Assembly: GCA_945861755.1 (NCBI GenBank)
Contig: CAMAVQ010000006.1
Location: 1 to 64,000 of the forward strand
Direction: 5' to 3'
Length of the DNA: 64,000 bases
Source of the DNA: Gemmatimonas phototrophica
Lineage (GTDB): Bacteria; Latescibacterota; UBA2968; UBA8231
In this document: one piece after another, positions 24,441-49,390 of the stretch
Layout: each line of letters begins with the position of its first letter
How positions within the stretch are numbered: the stretch's first letter is position 1
Notes under the pieces: model-generated
What the model saw: only the letters and a program-made list of their open reading frames with translations
Database searches by the model: none
What the model was told of the DNA's origin: nothing
Program-made: the position numbers and the translations under genes

Positions 24441-25436
24441 ATGAAGATCGCCCTAGAAGTAGCCCCCACGCCCCAGACCGCCCAATTCGCCAGCCAGGTG
24501 GGCGTGCGCCACGCGGTCATCGGCGGCCCCGACTCGCCCGCTGGCCGCGTCGAGTACGCCGAGCTGGCGCGTATCCAGGACCTCTTCGCCACTTATGACC
24601 TGGAAGTCTGCGCCGTCGAGAACGTGCCCTCGCACTTCTACGATCAGGTCATGTTTGGGCTGCGCGGGCGCGACCGCCAGCTCGACAACTACTGCGCCAC
24701 CATCGAGGCCATCGGCCGGGCCGGCATCCCCATCCTGGGCTACAACTGGATGCTGCTGGGCGGGATCAGCACCGACCAGGTGCGGGGGCGGGGCGGGGCG
24801 CGTCTGCGGCGCTTCGATCTGGAGGAGGCGCTGCGCAATCCCGCCGCTGCCCTGGACTGGCGCAACCCCCGGGGAGGTGGAGCCATCCATGTGCCCGACC
24901 GGGAAATCCACGGCGAGGAGGTGTGGGACAACCTGGCCTATTTCCTGGAGCGGGTGCTGCCGGTGGCCGAATCCTGCAAGGTCAAGCTGGCCGCCCATCC
25001 CGACGACGCGCCCATCCCCTCCTTCATGGGCGTGGCCCGCATCCTGCACAGCACCCAAGCCCTGCAGCGCGTGATCGACCTGGTGCCCAGCCCCTGCAAC
25101 GGCCTGGACCTATGCCAGGGCACGGTGGCCGAGATGGCCGGGACGGACCCCATCGACGCCATCCGCCACTTTGGCCGTCAGCAGAAGCTCTTCTTCGCCC
25201 ACTTCCGTGCGGTGCAGGGGCAGTTGCCCGGTGTCTTCCACGAGGTGTTTATGGACGAGGGGGATTGGGATATGGTGGCCGCCGTGAAGGCGTACCAGGA
25301 GGTGGGCTTCGAGGGCCCCATCCGCGCCGACCACACCCCCTGGCTGGTGGGGGAAAACGAGTGGGCCCACCGCGGCTTTGCCTTTGAGATCGGCTACATG
25401 CGCGGCCTGGTGCAGGCGCTGGAGGAAGTGGGCTGA
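24441..25436 (+). CDS. Mannonate dehydratase (UxuA family), copy 1
   Basis: UxuA dehydrates D-mannonate to 2-keto-3-deoxygluconate in hexuronate catabolism. The 331-aa product is family length and keeps the metal/active-site blocks: LAAHPDDAP, SPCNGLDLCQG, FFAHFRAVQG, MDEGDWDMVA and IRADHTPW. AGAGGT precedes the ATG. It is a paralog of the gene at 46803. It stands alone, ending 4 bp from the convergent hybrid kinase. Other dehydratases of the family act on related sugar acids, so the substrate is probable rather than certain. Confidence 0.92.
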   Translation: MKIALEVAPTPQTAQFASQVGVRHAVIGGPDSPAGRVEYAELARIQDLFATYDLEVCAVENVPSHFYDQVMFGLRGRDRQLDNYCATIEAIGRAGIPILGYNWMLLGGISTDQVRGRGGARLRRFDLEEALRNPAAALDWRNPRGGGAIHVPDREIHGEEVWDNLAYFLERVLPVAESCKVKLAAHPDDAPIPSFMGVARILHSTQALQRVIDLVPSPCNGLDLCQGTVAEMAGTDPIDAIRHFGRQQKLFFAHFRAVQGQLPGVFHEVFMDEGDWDMVAAVKAYQEVGFEGPIRADHTPWLVGENEWAHRGFAFEIGYMRGLVQALEEVG

Positions 25437-40805: not shown

Positions 40806-41828
40806 ATGCACGCCCTGATCGTTGTGCATCCAGATTTCGATCGCATCTGGCCCTTTGCCGCCGATCACTTCCGACGCTTGTGGCAGCAGCAGGGAGAGGT
40901 GGAGTTCGTCCGCGTGGGGGACGGGGACCAGCGCCCGCTGCGCCAGATCACCAGCCAGCCGGGCCGCATCCAGCGCCTGGCTTGCCTGGGGGTGCGGGTG
41001 GAGTTGGCGTGCCTGCGCGCTTGCGCCTCCCTGCGCGAGGCCACCTTTCAGGGAGGGTACAGCGGCAACCTCGACCGGGAATGCCTGGATCATCTAGAAC
41101 AGGCCGGGGTGCGGGTCTATCACCACCCCAGCGAGGGGTTCTGGGGCCAGACCGTGGCCGAATACGGCCTGGCCCTCACCCTGTGCGGCCTGCGCCGCAT
41201 CCCGCAGCTCCACCACCAGATCCTCACTTCGCTGGCGCCCTGGGACTACGAGCCGCCCGGCGGTCTGGGCCGGCCGGGGGCGCGGGGCCAGCAGTTTGGT
41301 GACGACGCGCGTTTTACCAGCGGCACCCTGGCCGGCAAACGGGTGCGGGTGGTGGGGGCCGGCAACATCGCCAGCCGCTACGCCAGTTTCGCCCACTTTT
41401 TGGGCGCTGAGGTGGCAGCCTGGGACCCCTTTGCCTCCGAGCCCTGTTTCCACCGCGCCGGAGCCCGCCGCGAGTGGCACCTGGAGCGGCTGGTCAGCGA
41501 CGCCGAGATCTTTGCCCCCATGGTGCCCCTCACCGATTCCACCCGCGATCTGGTCAAGGCCCACCACATCGAGGCCCTGCCCAAGGGCTGCCTGGTGGTG
41601 CTGGTGACCCGGGCCCGCATCTGCGACACCCAGGCCCTGCGCCGGCGGGTGCTGGCCGACGAGTTGAGCCTGGCCGCCGACGTGTGGGAGGTGGAGCCCG
41701 TACCCCTGGACGATCCGCTGTTGGGCCGGCCCAACGTGGTCCATACCCCCCACAATGCCGGCCGCACCATCGACGCCAACCGCGCCTGGGCCGAGAAGTT
41801 GGCGGAACAGTTTCTGCCCCCCATCTGA
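40806..41828 (+). CDS. D-isomer-specific 2-hydroxyacid dehydrogenase
   Basis: The 340-aa product has the family layout: substrate-binding lobes around a Rossmann domain with VVGAGNIASRYA (last Gly replaced by Ala), Asp in AAWDPFAS, catalytic Arg in VTRARIC, Glu in VEPVPLDDP and His in HTPHNAG. Family members reduce 2-keto acids with NAD(P)H. The ATG at 40806 is preferred because GGGAGGGAG precedes it and the family N-terminus starts there; the track frame begins 190 codons too early. It ends the PHP-led operon. Confidence 0.9.
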   Translation: MHALIVVHPDFDRIWPFAADHFRRLWQQQGEVEFVRVGDGDQRPLRQITSQPGRIQRLACLGVRVELACLRACASLREATFQGGYSGNLDRECLDHLEQAGVRVYHHPSEGFWGQTVAEYGLALTLCGLRRIPQLHHQILTSLAPWDYEPPGGLGRPGARGQQFGDDARFTSGTLAGKRVRVVGAGNIASRYASFAHFLGAEVAAWDPFASEPCFHRAGARREWHLERLVSDAEIFAPMVPLTDSTRDLVKAHHIEALPKGCLVVLVTRARICDTQALRRRVLADELSLAADVWEVEPVPLDDPLLGRPNVVHTPHNAGRTIDANRAWAEKLAEQFLPPI

Positions 41829-41841
41829 GGGGATAACTCCT

Positions 41842-41896
41842 TGTCAAAAAGAAGGTGCGGCGGTATTCTTAGGTGAGTTTATCTTCTTTTTTGACA
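41842..41896 (+). promoter_or_regulatory. Long inverted repeat in the transketolase leader
   Basis: TGTCAAAAAGAAG (41842-41854) and CTTCTTTTTTGACA (41883-41896) are complementary apart from one extra T, with a 28-bp spacer. The second arm ends just before the AGGAG of the transketolase GTG start. In RNA this would form an A/U-rich stem next to the RBS. It could be an attenuator, a translation control hairpin or two operator half-sites. Confidence 0.6.
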
Positions 41897-41907
41897 GGAG
41901 TGTACCC

Positions 41908-44175
41908 GTGAAAAGTTTACACACCCTCGATACGGCCCAGCAGCAGCGCAACCAGGCTCTGCTCGGCGCGGCCCGCCATCTCAGGGATGACAGTATCACC
42001 TCCCAGGTCCTGCCCCTGCAACTGGACGTCGCCACCCTGGAGCAGCTGAGCCCGGAGCAGGTCCACGCCCTGGAGGCGCTGCAGATCGAGGCAGCCCGCA
42101 TCGCCATCCGCTCCCTGGCCTCCCTGGCCAAGATCAACGAGCTGGACCACCTGGGTGGGGGACTGGAACTCATACCCTCCCTGCTGATGAGCCTGGCGGT
42201 GAGCGACTACGAGCGGGTCGAGTATACCATCGAACACGCCCATACCAGCATCGGCTATTTCTCCTGTCTGGCCGCCCTGGGTTTTGTCGATACCCAGTTG
42301 GTGGTCGATGGGTTCCGCCGCAGCCTGGATATCCCCGGCCACGTGGCGTGGCTGCCAGGGGGCACCCAGCTCAACGGCGGCCGCCTGGGGGTGATGGTGC
42401 CGGTGGCCGTGGGCCAGGCCCTGGGCAAACGCGCGTTCTACGGTGAGGGGAGCTGGGTATTGACCCACTGCGGGGACGCGGGCTGGATCTCGGGCCAGGC
42501 CCTCAACGGCTTCAACGGCGCTTCCCTGCACGGAGCGCCCATCACCTTTGTGATGCACCGCAACGGCATCCAGCTCTCGGGGCCCACCCGCAGCATTATG
42601 GATCGCGATCCGCGCCGCATCATCGGGGCCCTGGGCGTCGAGATCCTCGAAATCCCCACCTTGCTGGACACCGCGGCCCTGTACCAGGCCTATCGCCAGG
42701 CCTTTGCCCTGGCCCAAGAGGGCAAACCCTCGCTGATCTATCCGGTGGGCTTTCGCTCCAAGGGCGAGGAAAAGGTCACGCTCACCACTTTTGGCCAGAG
42801 CTACGGCATCCTCCCCGAGTTGGGAGCCTTTGCCGGCAAACACCAAGTGACGATGGACCAGGAGGTGTGGATCCCCGGCTCGCTGATGAGCTTCAGGGAC
42901 GTGATCCCGATGATCGAGTGTGTCTTCCTGGTGAACCAGCTGCCCGGCGGCGAGGGCCACCACGACGGCCATATGAAAGGCCGCAAGGAAGAGGAAGTCC
43001 TGGCCGGCCCCCTGCTCCAGCAAAGCCCGGCCCAGCAGCAGGCGCTCGAAGCACTGCGCCGTCAGTCGCCCAGGATCGTGGTCACCCAGCCCCGGCCGGC
43101 GCCGGGCACCCCGAACCTGGTCCTGCCCGGCGAGGCCCTGGAGGCGGTGAAGCTGCCGGCCGCCGGTACCAAGGCCAGCCCCCGGGCTGGCTCCGAAGCC
43201 GGGTACGAGGCGGTGGCCCGGGCCTTCCCCGAGCGGGTCTTTGTGGTCAGCTGCGATCTAGACGTCTCCACCCGTCTGGCCAAGGCCGGGGCGCTGCTGC
43301 CCAAGGGCCACCGCTTCGAGATGAGCATCGAGGAGCAGGCCGCGGTCCTGATGGCCGACGGGCTGGCCATGGCCACCCGCCAGCCGCAGCTGAATGTGGT
43401 CTCCACCTTTGCCGCCTTCTTCGAGGGTATCGCCCGCGAGGGCTTTGAATTGTGGCGGTACCAGCGCAACCTCAACGGCATCAACGAGGGGCTCAACGTC
43501 ACCTTCCATCTCTCCCACGTGGGCGCCTGCACCGGCCGCGACCACTTCTCGGGCTGGAGCCTGGACTGGATCAATATCGGCCTGACCTATCTGCCCTACC
43601 TGCGGCGCTTCTACGCCCCGGCCGACGCCCGCGCCGCCTTTCTGGCGGTGCGCGATCTGGCCGCCCATTACGGGGGCCACGTGCTGGCCATCGCGCGCGA
43701 CAACCTGCCGGTGCTGGAACGGCAGGACGGCTCTGGCCCGCTGTGGGAGGCCCACGCCGCCTGGGAGGAAACCACCCTGTACCGGACCCATGCCGGCGCC
43801 CGGCGGGCCATCCTGGCCCTGGGTGCCCCGGCCTTTATGGCCGGCGAGGCGGCGGCCCAGTTAGAAGGGGAAGGGTTGCCGGTGGATGTGTACATCGCCA
43901 ACAGTCTGCCCCTGCCCCACGGAATGCTGGAAAAGTGGATCACCCGGTACGACCAGGGGCTGGTCACCATCGAGGATGGGCTGATCGGCACGCCCGAAAG
44001 CGGTCTGAGGGGTTTTGCCGGTTTGGTGGCCAGCGCGGCCCAGGGCCGGGTGCCCCTGGCCCACCTTGGTATCACCGACCCCCGCGTCGCCCCTGCCGAA
44101 GGCTTCCCCGAAATCTGGGACTATTTCGGGATCACCGCCCAGGCATTGGTCGAGGCCGCGAAAGGGTTGTCGTAG
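41908..44175 (+). CDS. Transketolase-like thiamine diphosphate enzyme
   Basis: The 755-aa product contains both ThDP lobes in one chain. The pyrophosphate domain has HAHTSIGYFSCLAALG, THCGDAGWISGQALNG and the following HRNGIQLSGPT; the pyrimidine domain has FEMSIEEQAAVLMADGLAMA with the catalytic Glu. A C-terminal transketolase-like domain has IANSLPLPHGML. The GDG-N motif reads GDAG...N, a variant. It is unlike standard TktA in many places, so substrate is open. GTG at 41908 is chosen: AGGAG is correctly spaced and the upstream frame overlaps the dehydrogenase gene. Confidence 0.88.
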   Translation: MKSLHTLDTAQQQRNQALLGAARHLRDDSITSQVLPLQLDVATLEQLSPEQVHALEALQIEAARIAIRSLASLAKINELDHLGGGLELIPSLLMSLAVSDYERVEYTIEHAHTSIGYFSCLAALGFVDTQLVVDGFRRSLDIPGHVAWLPGGTQLNGGRLGVMVPVAVGQALGKRAFYGEGSWVLTHCGDAGWISGQALNGFNGASLHGAPITFVMHRNGIQLSGPTRSIMDRDPRRIIGALGVEILEIPTLLDTAALYQAYRQAFALAQEGKPSLIYPVGFRSKGEEKVTLTTFGQSYGILPELGAFAGKHQVTMDQEVWIPGSLMSFRDVIPMIECVFLVNQLPGGEGHHDGHMKGRKEEEVLAGPLLQQSPAQQQALEALRRQSPRIVVTQPRPAPGTPNLVLPGEALEAVKLPAAGTKASPRAGSEAGYEAVARAFPERVFVVSCDLDVSTRLAKAGALLPKGHRFEMSIEEQAAVLMADGLAMATRQPQLNVVSTFAAFFEGIAREGFELWRYQRNLNGINEGLNVTFHLSHVGACTGRDHFSGWSLDWINIGLTYLPYLRRFYAPADARAAFLAVRDLAAHYGGHVLAIARDNLPVLERQDGSGPLWEAHAAWEETTLYRTHAGARRAILALGAPAFMAGEAAAQLEGEGLPVDVYIANSLPLPHGMLEKWITRYDQGLVTIEDGLIGTPESGLRGFAGLVASAAQGRVPLAHLGITDPRVAPAEGFPEIWDYFGITAQALVEAAKGLS

Positions 44176-44199
44176 GGGCGCATCCTAATGCGCCCCTAC
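44172..44199. repeat. REP-like perfect hairpin at the transketolase stop codon
   Basis: GTAGGGGCGCAT and ATGCGCCCCTAC form a 12-bp perfect stem with a 4-nt loop; the left arm includes the TAG stop codon. Elements of this GTAGGGGCG form are dispersed repeats in many uncultured bacteria. It may also end the transketolase transcript, although no T-run follows. Confidence 0.6.
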
Positions 44200-44241
44200 A
44201 CGCGTTCAGGACCATCACCAATTCACAGGAGTGAATCGCAC

Positions 44242-44865
44242 ATGTCTAAATTCGTTTTCCTCATTCTGCTCGCCGCCCTCACCAGCTGTGCCTCCAAGGG
44301 AGGCAACCCCCAACTCCTCTCCAATCCAGGTCATCCCAAGATGAACGAACAGGCACCCGCATCCTTCAAGGTCGAATTCAAGACCAGTGTCGGCAGTTTT
44401 GAGGTCGAAGTGACCCGCGCCCTTTCTCCCCACGGGGCGGACCGTTTCTACAATCTGGTCCAAAACGGATTCTTCGACGGTCAGCGCTTCTTCCGGGTGG
44501 TCCCCGGATTCATCGTCCAGTTCGGCCTGCACGGGGATCCCCAGATCTCGGCGGCCTGGCGCGAGGCCAACATCGCCGACGATCCGGTTCAGACCACCAA
44601 CGCGCGCGGCACCATCACCTTTGCCACTGCCGGTCCCAACACCCGCACCACCCAGCTCTTCATCAATTTCCAGGACAACGGCGGCCTCGACGGGCAGGGA
44701 TTTTCGCCCTTCGGCAAGGTGGTGGAAGGCATGGAAGTAGTGGACAAGATCAACAGCGAATACGGACAACAGCCCAGCCAGGGCAAGATCCAGATGGAAG
44801 GCAATGCCTATCTGACGTCCAAGTTTCCCAAACTGGATTACATAGAACACGCCAGCGTCAAATGA
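44242..44865 (+). CDS. Cyclophilin-type peptidyl-prolyl isomerase, lipoprotein
   Basis: The 207-aa product has a lipoprotein signal (FVFLILLAALTSC; lipobox LTSC) and a compact cyclophilin domain: FYNLVQNGFFDGQRFFRVVPGFIVQFG, GTITFATAGPNTRTTQLFINFQDN and FSPFGKVVEGMEVVDKI. These contain the conserved Arg, Phe and Gln of the active site. It would fold envelope proteins. ACAGGAG precedes the ATG at 44242; the track start is 18 codons upstream inside the leader. The transporter operon follows after 22 bp. Confidence 0.95.
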   Translation: MSKFVFLILLAALTSCASKGGNPQLLSNPGHPKMNEQAPASFKVEFKTSVGSFEVEVTRALSPHGADRFYNLVQNGFFDGQRFFRVVPGFIVQFGLHGDPQISAAWREANIADDPVQTTNARGTITFATAGPNTRTTQLFINFQDNGGLDGQGFSPFGKVVEGMEVVDKINSEYGQQPSQGKIQMEGNAYLTSKFPKLDYIEHASVK

Positions 44866-44887
44866 GCGGGAGGGGCAGGCAGGAGGC

Positions 44888-45781
44888 TTGAGTCTTCCGG
44901 CTGACCAGCCCATCGGCCTGCGGACCGGGATCTTGGCGTTTGCCGCCGCCCTCTTGTGGGGGGGCAACGCGGTGTTCATCAAGATCGGCCTGCAGGGCAT
45001 GCCCCCCATCGCCATGGCCGGGGCGCGTTTTGCCATCGGCGCCGTGACGGTGGCGGTGGGCGCCCTGGTCGCCGGCGTCTCCCTGCGCGGCCTGTCCGGT
45101 AGCTGGCGTGGCCTGGGGGTGCTCCAACTGGTCTTCGTCTCCCAGATCCTGCTGCTCAATCTGGGCACCCTGTGGACCACGGCCAGCCGCGCCGCGGTGC
45201 TGATCAACGCCTACCCCTTCTTCACCGCTCTTTTTGCCCACTTTCTGCTGCAGGACGACCGACTCAGCCGGGTGAAATTGCTGGGATTGCTCTGTTCCTT
45301 TGCCGGAGTGCTCCTGCTCTTCGCCGAATCCCTGACTCTGTTCGACACCACCTACTTGCTGGGCGATGCCCTGGTCCTGGGCAGCGGCATGTTCCTGGGG
45401 CTGCGCCAGGTGGTGCTCAAGCGCCTGGTGCGGGGCATACATCCCTACCAAGTGCTCTTCTGGCAGGCGGCCCTCAGCTTGCCGATCTTTGGGATACTGA
45501 GCCTGATCTGGGAAGACGGGGCCGTGTATCACTTGGACCTGGCGGTGATCGGCGCGCTGCTCTACCAGGGCGTGATCGTGGCCGGTCTGTGCTTCATTGT
45601 CTGGGTCTCGCTCTTGCGCCGCCACAGCGCCAGCCGGCTGGGGGTGTACAGCTTTGCCACCCCGCCGGCCGGGGTGTTGCTCAGCGCCCTGCTGCTGGGC
45701 GAGGCCATCTCCCCGGCCCTGTGGGCGAGTATGGCCCTGGTGGCGGTGGGCATCGCCATCGTCAACCGGGAGGGAGGGTGA
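44888..45781 (+). CDS. EamA/DMT-family transporter
   Basis: The 297-aa product has ten predicted membrane segments in two EamA halves (ALLWGGNAVFIKIGL and LGSGMFLGLRQVVLKRL, with SFATPPAGVLLSALLLGEAI near the end). Members export or import metabolites such as amino acids and sugars. A TTG start at 44888 is used; the Shine-Dalgarno assignment is ambiguous because AGGAGG abuts it and GGGAGG lies further upstream. It heads a tight operon with the glycosidase-like and mannonate dehydratase genes, which suggests a sugar-acid substrate. Confidence 0.88.
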   Translation: MSLPADQPIGLRTGILAFAAALLWGGNAVFIKIGLQGMPPIAMAGARFAIGAVTVAVGALVAGVSLRGLSGSWRGLGVLQLVFVSQILLLNLGTLWTTASRAAVLINAYPFFTALFAHFLLQDDRLSRVKLLGLLCSFAGVLLLFAESLTLFDTTYLLGDALVLGSGMFLGLRQVVLKRLVRGIHPYQVLFWQAALSLPIFGILSLIWEDGAVYHLDLAVIGALLYQGVIVAGLCFIVWVSLLRRHSASRLGVYSFATPPAGVLLSALLLGEAISPALWASMALVAVGIAIVNREGG

Positions 45782-45782
45782 G

Positions 45783-46787
45783 ATGGATGTCATCAAGATG
45801 ATGATGTTCGACCTGAACTGGTCCAAACACGACGCGCCTCACCCCTGCAATCTGCCCAGCAGCCCTCAAGATTGGGCCTGGGTGGACCCGCAGACCTATT
45901 TCGACTGGCAGGTGGGGGTGGGCAACAACGCGATCTTTCTGCAAGCCTACACCTATGGCGGATACGCCTTCTACCCCACCCGGCTGGGCCCGGTGCCCCC
46001 GGGTCCGGGCCAGCACCTGCTGCCCAAGGTTTTCGAGCTGTCGCACCAGGCGGGCCTGCCCTTCTGCTCCTACTTCTGCGTGGGGGCCGACGTGGCCACC
46101 AATGGATATCATGGCGAGTGGGTGATCCCCGGCAGCCGGCGCACCTGGAGTCACGGTTTTCTGGGCCCCGAGAGCCCCTGGACCGACCTGCTGTGTGCGC
46201 GGGTGCGCGAGTTTTTGCGCGAGTACCCGGTGGACTGGCTGATGTTCGACTGGTTCTGCTACGGAGATCTGAAGACCGATTTCCAGGTGCAGCCGTACTG
46301 GTTCGTCAAGGAGCCCTTTGCGCGGATCATCGGCCGCCCTATGCCCGAGGACCCGGCCCAGATCACCCCTGAAGAGAGCCTCGAGTACAAGCGCCAGGTG
46401 CTAGCCGAGCAGTTCGGTCGCCTGCGCGACACGGTGAAAGAGACCAGCCCGCAGACCCGTATCTGCTTCACCCCTCCCTACTGGGGGCCGGCCGATCCGC
46501 AGTGGGTGGACCATCCCATGCTGGCCGGCAGCGACATGCTCTTGGCCGAGTTCTCCAGCGAGGAGACCATGGCCTGGTTGCTGAGCATCCGCCGGCCCGG
46601 CCAGCGGGTGATGGGCACGGTGATGAACGTGCACGGCCCCATGTCCCCCGAGGAGATGCTGAAGTGGGCCCAGCGGGGCTGCGATTTGAGCGGGTACCTG
46701 TGGGGTACGCCCCCGGTGTTCAAACCCCATTCGGCCCACGTGGCCGGCATGGAGGCGGTGAAACGGGGATTCGAATTGATTGGCTAA
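45783..46787 (+). CDS. Putative TIM-barrel glycosidase-like protein
   Basis: The 334-aa product lacks a signal peptide. It resembles GH29/GHL-type barrels: FDLNWSKHDAPHP, VGVGNNAIFLQAYTYGGYAFYPT, DWLMFDWFCYGD (an acidic residue on a beta-4-like strand), ICFTPPYWGPADPQW and DMLLAEFSSEE. Family assignment and catalytic residues are not secure, hence the cautious name. The ATG at 45783 is 1 bp past the transporter stop. The mannonate dehydratase follows after 15 bp. Confidence 0.7.
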   Translation: MDVIKMMMFDLNWSKHDAPHPCNLPSSPQDWAWVDPQTYFDWQVGVGNNAIFLQAYTYGGYAFYPTRLGPVPPGPGQHLLPKVFELSHQAGLPFCSYFCVGADVATNGYHGEWVIPGSRRTWSHGFLGPESPWTDLLCARVREFLREYPVDWLMFDWFCYGDLKTDFQVQPYWFVKEPFARIIGRPMPEDPAQITPEESLEYKRQVLAEQFGRLRDTVKETSPQTRICFTPPYWGPADPQWVDHPMLAGSDMLLAEFSSEETMAWLLSIRRPGQRVMGTVMNVHGPMSPEEMLKWAQRGCDLSGYLWGTPPVFKPHSAHVAGMEAVKRGFELIG

Positions 46788-46802: not shown

Positions 46803-47801
46803 ATGAAAATAGCTTTGAGCGGTGATCCGGAACCCGGGCACCTACAGTTCATGCAGCAACTGGGATTGCAGTACGTGGTCAGCGGTGCGGCCGCCAGTCC
46901 CGAGGGGGTGGTGGAGCTGGAGCCCATGCAGCGCAAGCGCGAGGCCTTTGCCAAGGCCGGCTTTTCCTGGGACGTGATCGAGAACCTGCCGCCGCTGTGT
47001 TACGACAAGGTAATGTTCGGGCTGCCCGGTCGCGACGAGCAGATCGACAAGGTCTGCCAGTCTATCCGCAACATCGCCCGGGCCGGTATCCCGGTGTTGC
47101 AGTACCAGTGGATGCTGCTGGGCGGATTGCGCACCGAATACAGCCCCACGGGCCGGGGCGGGTCGCGGTACCCGCGCTTCGACATGGCGGTGGCCGAACG
47201 TATGCCGGCGGCGGCCATGGACTGGCTGCGCGGCGGCGGTCCCTATCCCCACTTGCCCGACCGCGACATGAGCCAGCAGGAGGTGCGCGACAACCTGACC
47301 TATTTCCTGGAGCGGATCGTGCCGGTGGCCGAGGCCGAGGGGGTGAAGATCGCTGCCCACCCCGACGACGCGCCAGTGCCCTATTATATGGGCGTGGGCC
47401 GCATCCTGGTCGATGAGGCCGGTATGCAGCAGGTGATCGACGCGGTGCCCAGCCCCAACAACGGCCTGGGCTTCTGCATGGGCACCATCGGCACCATGGA
47501 CCAGGTGGACGTGGTGGCGGCGATTCGCCGCTTCGGCGGGCAGCAGCGCATCTTCTTCGCCCACTTCCGCAATCCGCGCGGCCAGGTGCCTGCCTTCGAA
47601 GAGGTTTTCCCCGACGAGGGGGATATCGACATGGTGGCGGCAGTGCAGGCTTTTAACGAGGTGGGCTTCGACGGGCTCATCCGTATCGATCATTGCCCGG
47701 GGGTGGTGGGCGACAACGGGCGGGCTGACCGGTCATTTGCTTTTCAGGTGGGTTATCTCAGAGGGCTGGTCAATGCCCTGCGCGATCTAGGAGGGAAATA
47801 A
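46803..47801 (+). CDS. Mannonate dehydratase (UxuA family), copy 2
   Basis: The 332-aa product aligns throughout with copy 1 (24441). It retains IAAHPDDAPVPYYMG, PSPNNGLGFCMGTIGTM, FFAHFRNPRGQ, PDEGDIDMVAAVQAFNEVGFDG and IRIDHCPG, so all metal and catalytic blocks are present. AGGAGGGG precedes the ATG. Copy 1 has CNGLDLC where this has NNGLGFC, a possible specificity difference. It is immediately followed by a degenerate paralog, as if the pair worked together. Confidence 0.92.
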   Translation: MKIALSGDPEPGHLQFMQQLGLQYVVSGAAASPEGVVELEPMQRKREAFAKAGFSWDVIENLPPLCYDKVMFGLPGRDEQIDKVCQSIRNIARAGIPVLQYQWMLLGGLRTEYSPTGRGGSRYPRFDMAVAERMPAAAMDWLRGGGPYPHLPDRDMSQQEVRDNLTYFLERIVPVAEAEGVKIAAHPDDAPVPYYMGVGRILVDEAGMQQVIDAVPSPNNGLGFCMGTIGTMDQVDVVAAIRRFGGQQRIFFAHFRNPRGQVPAFEEVFPDEGDIDMVAAVQAFNEVGFDGLIRIDHCPGVVGDNGRADRSFAFQVGYLRGLVNALRDLGGK

Positions 47802-47802
47802 G

Positions 47803-48591
47803 ATGGAACTGGCATTTTCGGTACAACACGGACAGGACGATCAGCTGATTTTTGCCCAGCAACTGGGAGCCGACAGCGTGGTAGTGGCGGTGGATACCTG
47901 GGAAGCGGCAACCCTGAAGGCGGCGCGCAACCGGGTGGAGCGCAGCCAGCTCAAGCTGGGCGGCCTCGAAGCGCTGCCTCTTTCTGGGCAGGATCTAGCC
48001 GGCTTCTGCCAGGGATTGCGCCACGCCGGGGAGGCCGGCATCGACTTGGTCAGCTGCGACTGGCGGCCATTGCCTGCAACCCCGCCTCAGCCCATGGGCC
48101 GGGGCAAGGCGCTTGTGGCCGCTGTTCCGGCGCCGGCAGCAGCGCCCACCTGGGAAGCCCTGGAACAGTTCGTCGCCCAGGCCGGGCCGGTGGCCCAGGC
48201 CGCCGGGGTGCGTCTGGCCTGTCGCGCCGGGGCTGGGATGCTGCGCGAGTATCAGCGTCTGGTGAAGCTGGTCCCGGCCCTGGATCTGGATCTGGCTGAA
48301 CTGGCGGGGTCGGGAGTGGGGGCCGAGGAATTGATCGGCGCGGCGGGCGGGAAGCTGGCCCTGGTTCACGCCAACAACCTGCGCCAGCAGCAACAGGCTT
48401 TTCTGGACGAGGGAGAGATCTCGCTGCCCAAGGTGATGAGGGCATTGGTCCGGGCCGGCTTCTCTGGCCCGCTGCGCGCTAGTCTGCCGCCGGGCATGGT
48501 CGAGGATACCGACTGGGGGCACAAGGGCCGCGCTTTTGATCTGGGGTACCTGCGGGCCATCCTGCAGGTGATCGAGCGGAGCGGGGAGTAA
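47803..48591 (+). CDS. Catalytically degenerate mannonate dehydratase paralog (pseudoenzyme)
   Basis: The 262-aa product is shorter than its neighbour and matches it in outline, most clearly at the C-terminus: FLDEGEISLPKVMRALVRAGFSGPLRASL and KGRAFDLGYLRAILQVIE. The key motifs are lost: HPDDAP becomes RAGAGM, the Cys block becomes DLDLAELAG, HFR becomes VHANN and the DH pair becomes SLPPG. The reading frame is intact, GGAGGG precedes the ATG and only 1 bp separates it from copy 2. This is inferred to be a maintained partner or scaffold subunit rather than a decaying gene. Confidence 0.82.
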   Translation: MELAFSVQHGQDDQLIFAQQLGADSVVVAVDTWEAATLKAARNRVERSQLKLGGLEALPLSGQDLAGFCQGLRHAGEAGIDLVSCDWRPLPATPPQPMGRGKALVAAVPAPAAAPTWEALEQFVAQAGPVAQAAGVRLACRAGAGMLREYQRLVKLVPALDLDLAELAGSGVGAEELIGAAGGKLALVHANNLRQQQQAFLDEGEISLPKVMRALVRAGFSGPLRASLPPGMVEDTDWGHKGRAFDLGYLRAILQVIERSGE

Positions 48592-48778: not shown

Positions 48779-49162
48779 ATGACTGAAATTCCTACTCCTA
48801 AATCCTCCCCACCCTCCGAGCAGCTTCCTTGGGGTATCTCCTACCTCCGGGAAGACATCCAGGACCTGCGCCAGGATCTGCGCGAAAGCATTCAAGAGGT
48901 GCGCCAGGAAGTCCAGGAGGTGCGGCAGGACCTGCGCCAGGAGATCCAGGGCGTCCGCCAGGAGGTGCGCCAGGAGATTCAGGGCGTCCGCCAGGAGATC
49001 AATGGCCGCATCGATGAGACCAACCGCCGCATCGACGACCGGTACGAACTGCTGCTCAAACGCATTGATTCGCGCTTTGCCTGGACCATCACCACCGTGA
49101 TCGCTCTCGGCGGCCTCATGGTGACCTTGGTGGGAGTGGTGGTTGCGGTATTCAAAACCTGA
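48779..49162 (+). CDS. Coiled-coil protein with 11-residue repeats and C-terminal membrane anchor
   Basis: The 127-aa product has a Pro-rich start, a long charged helix with near-perfect hendecads (RQDLRQEIQGV, RQEVRQEIQGV), then NGRIDETNRRIDDRYELLLKR and a single C-terminal membrane helix (ITTVIALGGLMVTLVGVVVAVF). The layout resembles bacterial tail-anchored coiled-coil proteins of the DUF1640/Bdr type, where repeats vary in number. GAGGAAG precedes the ATG. Expression from a sigma54 promoter is inferred. Repeat-length variation between strains would be expected. Confidence 0.8.
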   Translation: MTEIPTPKSSPPSEQLPWGISYLREDIQDLRQDLRESIQEVRQEVQEVRQDLRQEIQGVRQEVRQEIQGVRQEINGRIDETNRRIDDRYELLLKRIDSRFAWTITTVIALGGLMVTLVGVVVAVFKT

Positions 49163-49324: not shown

Positions 49325-49390
49325 AGCCGCGCCTTCGACCTAGGATACCTGCGGGCCATCCTGCAGGTGATCGAGCGGACCGGGGCGTGA
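49325..49390 (+). pseudogene. 3'-end relic of a mannonate dehydratase-like paralog
   Basis: The last 21 codons read KSRAFDLGYLRAILQVIERTGA then TGA, matching the tail of the pseudoenzyme at 47803 (KGRAFDLGYLRAILQVIERSGE). At the DNA level about 34 bp near the end are identical. Everything upstream of this tail is unrelated, so the copy has been truncated. The coiled-coil gene lies between the two copies. Confidence 0.85.

Follow-up and report, generated by a model that had tools for sequence, protein, structure and literature searches.

A degenerate paralog of the mannonate dehydratase family kept beside an intact copy: a candidate non-catalytic subunit

Why would a genome maintain an open gene for a mannonate dehydratase-like protein that has lost most of its catalytic residues, directly behind an intact copy? 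The question is raised by two adjoining genes in the window, the whole 64,000-nucleotide stretch of DNA that was analysed, which is part of the MAG G000 (4.39 Mb, 255 contigs). The upstream gene (46803-47801) is referred to here as the partner ('act') and the downstream gene (47803-48591) as pse (Table 1). A first-pass annotation had described pse as a gene with preserved frame and ribosome-binding site, 1 bp from its intact paralog. These features were borne out: the reading frame has a correct start and stop and no internal stop codons, the Shine-Dalgarno-like hexamer is present, and the partner's TAA is followed by a single G and then by the ATG of pse. In G001, G002 and G003 the counterpart of AGGAGG is CTAGGAGG. 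The location of this site inside the end of the partner gene suggests translational coupling of partner and pse.

Table 1. Features of the partner/pse locus, in window coordinates.
Feature	Position	Strand	Details
Partner ('act'), intact UxuA-like	46803..47801	+	332 aa; Pfam UxuA E 4.5e-59; PDB relatives 1tz9, 3ban, 4eac
Partner motif residues			His186, Cys225, His254, Asp296-His297 present; R307 where the beta8-alpha8 loop aromatic is expected (motif table)
Shine-Dalgarno-like AGGAGG	47789..47794	+	Inside the 3' end of the partner; the pse start codon follows after 8 nt
pse gene	47803..48591	+	262 aa; complete TIM barrel predicted; AlphaFold and Foldseek, best match 3ban
alpha1 segment DDQLIFAQQLG, residues 12-22	47836..47868	+	Conservation 0.74 in pse vs 0.33 in partner; invariant columns
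R141	48223..48225	+	Replaces first metal-ligand His (HPDD motif); alignment
H189	48367..48369	+	One remaining metal-ligand His, aligned with partner His254; alignment
S227-L228	48481..48486	+	Replaces Asp-His (partner D296-H297; S. suis D310-H311 by alignment)
beta8-loop-alpha8, residues 225-256, RASLPPGMVEDTDWGHKGRAFDLGYLRAILQV	48475..48570	+	Strongly conserved in pse, 0.54-0.73
W238	48514..48516	+	In the alignment column of S. suis Tyr325; pse has Trp in 11/11, partners an aromatic in 0/11
Third UxuA-like paralog	24441..25436	+	All motifs intact, without an adjoining dead partner; sister group of the partner subfamily

The neighbourhood upstream of the pair (40806-46787) is conserved in the genus. 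Its genes include a 2-hydroxyacid dehydrogenase, a cyclophilin, an EamA transporter and an 800-aa thiamine-dependent dehydrogenase (E1/transketolase-like); the protein encoded at 45777-46787, upstream of the partner, has no Pfam match. On the other side, the final 63 nt of pse recur with 89% identity at positions 49326-49388, 799 bp further downstream. At its 3' end the G001 ortholog matches this copy better (61/66) than the adjacent window pse gene does (57/66), as would be seen if about 735 bp had been inserted and an older gene end left behind. A small ORF inside the possible insert (48779-49162, 127 aa) encodes a protein with repeats of LRQEIQGVRQEV-type coiled-coil units and, probably, a membrane helix at its C-terminus.

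The extent of motif loss in pse was established by aligning 77 UxuA-like proteins from the phylum: 11 partners, 11 pse proteins and 55 other intact paralogs. The His, Cys, His and Asp-His elements are all present in the 11 partners and in 55/55 other paralogs, and Asp-His is retained in 0/11 pse. In the window copy of pse, HPDD has become CRAG, and the column of the Cys ligand holds Leu (Leu, Val or Ala in congeners). The statement that all metal and catalytic motifs are lost therefore stands for HPDD, Cys and Asp-His, but is one residue too strong because H189 remains, as it does in 5/5 genomes of the genus (VHANN, VHSSN or VHACN). A GRG motif is also retained. Where an active mannonate dehydratase is expected to carry His, Cys, His, Asp and a catalytic His, pse thus presents R141, Leu, the retained H189, S227 and L228, and does not qualify as one.

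Pse nonetheless belongs to the UxuA family (PF03786) by descent, as indicated by its Pfam score and by the match of its predicted fold to 3ban. The Pfam model gives 200 bits in the partner and 26.0 bits in pse, above the gathering threshold of 23.7 and confined to the C-terminus (residues 198-258), in agreement with the earlier description of a preserved C-terminal family sequence. Both proteins share fold and ancestry with the known members of the UxuA/ManD family (3ban from S. suis, 1tz9 and 4eac), and each departs from them in its own way. The partner retains all metal ligands and Asp-His but lacks an equivalent of Tyr325 and does not reach the mannonate dehydratase cut-offs of NCBIfam (171.6 vs 191 and 133.6 vs 199.55). 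Pse resembles the family at its C-terminus and in its model, to which 3ban is the closest structure, but it lacks three of the four metal ligands as well as Asp-His and scores 24.2 vs 191. Annotating either gene alone as a mannonate dehydratase is unsafe.

The two genes are strictly associated across the phylum. A partner-profile search of 64 genomes of the phylum separated the members of the partner subfamily (571-703 bits, with a threshold of at least 570) from the next protein at 421 bits. The subfamily occurs in 11/64 genomes, and in all 11 pse lies directly downstream or is fused, so that the gene pair, whose presence in relatives the first-pass annotation had named as a check, is found wherever its partner is. 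The carriers are all five genomes of the window genus, G015, G007, G008, G012 and G014 of the same family, and G060 of another family. The naive chance of such a full overlap, about 1e-12, is not to be taken literally because the 11 carriers represent only about five independent lineages. Partner and pse are separated by 1 bp in four congeners, by about 200 bp in G004 and by 2 bp in G015, and they overlap by 4 bp in G008, G012 and G014 and by 16 nt in G007. In the G004 spacer (L048:6517-6719), a Shine-Dalgarno-like site still precedes pse, and the partner there is without its last four residues. The thorough search covered this phylum; a scan of all genomes with short exact pse patterns returned matches only in congeners. 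The pse of G007, which scores only 87 bits, was identified from its ends and its location, so other highly diverged copies may have escaped the search.

In the three g5 genomes, the pair is followed by a gene that is sulfatase-like by its N-terminus (L042:2948-4351, L043:5561-6967, L044:5674-7080), which may hint at a substrate derived from a sulfated sugar. Tandem duplication of UxuA-like genes is frequent in the phylum: G025 has three intact genes in tandem (L046:3579-6584), with similar sets in G044, G046 and G040.

A natural fusion joins the two proteins in G060, where a single 676-aa ORF begins with a partner-type domain, which a linker of about 35 residues connects to a second UxuA domain. 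The second domain carries HPDD, Cys and HLRN, has AC in place of Asp-His, contains the VWGHK loop typical of pse and clusters with pse in the tree (SH-aLRT 99). It looks like an early stage of decay in which Asp-His was lost before the metal site. The MAG that encodes this fusion is rated 60% complete, and read-level confirmation is due. The AlphaFold model of the fusion has a mean pLDDT of 69 and a pTM of 0.54; it is limited by having only two close homologs for domain 1, and it speaks neither for nor against an interface between the domains.

Taken as a whole, the sequence evidence makes it likely that the 47803 product is the non-catalytic subunit of an obligate heteromeric enzyme of the sugar-acid dehydratase type, in which the 46803 product would be the catalytic subunit. 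Such a complex could have arisen from an ancestral UxuA gene that was duplicated in tandem. Asp-His would have been the first element lost from the downstream copy, followed in the lineage studied here by most of the metal site; the barrel, alpha1 and the beta8-alpha8 sector would have been retained. The alpha1/alpha8 sector would be the surface at which the two translationally coupled proteins associate, and the dead subunit may stabilise, activate or complete the active site of the live one.

The distribution of conserved residues, compared in seven lineage representatives, identifies the parts of pse that have been retained. Conservation of the partner is highest around the active site, whereas the active-site loops of pse have fallen to 0.07-0.26. 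Alpha1 is the sole barrel element whose conservation in pse far exceeds that in the partner, and strong conservation extends over beta8 and alpha8 (Table 1). Alpha1 adjoins alpha8 in a TIM barrel, and the two segments therefore form one continuous sector in pse, which is the likeliest candidate for a contact surface.

The loop between beta8 and alpha8 bears on how the subunits might cooperate. In the S. suis enzyme, chain residue 345 aligns with the aromatic residue in the PYGHRGRAF loop of intact relatives; allowing for a 20-residue tag, we take this residue from the numbering to be Tyr325. S. suis ManD is a homodimer, and its mutagenesis reportedly assigned roles to His311 and Tyr325. The pair has split these two catalytic elements: within it, Asp-His occurs only in the partner (11/11) and the loop aromatic only in pse (11/11). 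Among the other paralogs, the aromatic is found in 41/55. Four residues past it, 10/11 pse and 54/55 others retain a Gly, where 11/11 partners have Ser. A composite site is a possible reason for the split, and an altered substrate of the partner is another. In the composite arrangement, a specific form of the heteromer, the pse loop with W238 and K241 would serve the metal site of the partner in trans, giving one site per heterodimer. The reciprocal distribution of Asp-His and the aromatic, the substitution of a nearly universal Gly in all partners and the alignment of Tyr325 with the loop aromatic agree with it. However, the aromatic is also missing from 14/55 intact paralogs, and hence is not required in every UxuA-like enzyme, and the partner may simply have switched substrate. 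We therefore regard the composite site as a tentative proposal, with the balance tilted against it. It is equally tentative that the copies divided one active site between them and that G060 sealed the composite into a double barrel resembling an early MetE.

A second alternative is that pse acts as an independent barrel, with a new activity or as a ligand-binding sensor, and that the partner is merely a pathway neighbour. Such a protein would use the residues kept at the ends of beta1 and beta8 (D12, R225, D235, W238 and K241), and these retained polar residues do gather on the catalytic face of the two strands. Selection on pse is ongoing, and its barrel is predicted to be intact: AlphaFold modelled it from 33 sequences with a pLDDT of 90.0, a pTM of 0.88 and eight strands in barrel order. 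In a Foldseek comparison of the model with the PDB, 3ban, the mannonate dehydratase of S. suis, came first (TM 0.76-0.79 by query length). Against an independent role, pse occurs without the partner in 0/11 genomes, is fused to it in G060 and has lost conservation in most loops of the catalytic face. Moreover, the middle of pse is strongly shortened in genera g5 and g4, or low-complexity insertions fill that region. The pse of G007 (L077:2797-3909) has 370 aa with Ala/Pro/Thr-rich insertions between conserved ends. Independent function thus appears improbable, and a subunit role remains the preferred reading.

The shared history of the two proteins is also relevant to whether they were linked only through recent transfer or duplication as a block. 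The patchy distribution of the pair, present in 1/11 genomes in g7 and in one genome of another family, would fit such hitch-hiking. However, partner identity between carriers falls to 61%, which makes the association old; the genes flanking the pair differ from genus to genus while the pair itself stays; and neutral linkage does not maintain an open ORF. Hitch-hiking is accordingly very unlikely. The two groups form one clade each (SH-aLRT 99 and 98) in a quick maximum-likelihood tree, in which the pse branches are long and deviate in letter composition. The pairwise divergences of partner and pse are correlated in a mirror-tree comparison (r = 0.94; 0/5000 permutations as high), although this value partly reflects the common organismal phylogeny.

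Selection on pse was assessed from pairwise NG86 estimates of dN/dS among the five congeners, in which pse is 78-86% identical to the window copy. The first-pass annotation had proposed that selection maintains the dead copy, and had specified beforehand a value near 1 as the one that would contradict this. The values for pse, 0.15-0.29, are far below 1, compared with 0.08-0.16 for the partner. Bootstrap limits for pse are 0.10-0.41, and the upper limits over the pairs tested are 0.41 for pse and 0.18 for the partner. Selection is strongest at both ends of the protein, and pse diverges at about 2.6 times the rate of the partner. Given these dN/dS values and a complete predicted TIM barrel, pse is not a decaying pseudogene. 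A recent pseudogene surviving by chance would account for the missing motifs and the faster change, but its probability is negligible: it is ruled out by dN/dS, with an upper limit of at most 0.41, and by intact ORFs in 11/11 carrier genomes across several genera, where simulated neutral change left only 2-14% of copies open per lineage.

The case for an enzyme/pseudoenzyme heteromer rests on several lines of evidence: partner and pse co-occur side by side, pse is under purifying selection and has an intact predicted fold, the divergences of the two mirror each other, a natural fusion exists, and the catalytic motifs are divided between the two proteins. The case is limited by the model of the G060 fusion, which has a low pTM without a clear placement of the domains, the faster evolution of pse, its shortened or low-complexity middle in g5 and g4, the small number of independent lineages and the incomplete MAG from which the fusion derives. 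Pse also displays the hallmarks of a prozyme-type protein, namely absent catalytic residues with the predicted fold intact, purifying selection and a constant position beside the enzyme (11/11).

Several known systems offer parallels. In the trypanosomatid AdoMetDC/prozyme and deoxyhypusine synthase systems, a dead enzyme paralog forms an active heteromer (PMC5201418, PMC3663545). Like partner and pse, these systems keep a catalytically dead paralog of an enzyme in the genome; unlike them, they have other folds, are eukaryotic and form proven complexes, while the partner/pse complex is inferred. MetE is a double barrel that arose by gene duplication, with the metal and substrate sites of one barrel obliterated (PMC539065). 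It resembles the G060 fusion in joining two homologous TIM barrels from a duplication in one chain, but belongs to an unrelated barrel family, is a single chain throughout and has a solved structure. Further pseudoenzyme subunits, comparable to the role proposed for pse, are the TSB-like allosteric activator of tryptophan synthase alpha (PMC12727527) and PDX1.2, a non-catalytic regulator of vitamin B6 synthesis (PMC6829848). Both, in contrast to pse, are plant systems involving different enzymes. A literature search for a pseudoenzyme in the UxuA family found none, which is weak evidence of absence.

To our knowledge, the best-known cases of dead-paralog subunits come from a few eukaryotic enzymes. 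Partner and pse would add a case from bacteria, within a TIM-barrel family that is common and metal-dependent. Living intermediates exist, including a fused form that lacks only Asp-His, others in which most of the metal site is gone, and some shortened to 235 aa, so the succession of steps that led from a homomer to an obligate heteromer may be readable. The reciprocal loss of two catalytic elements would, in turn, allow a direct mutational test of subunit complementation.
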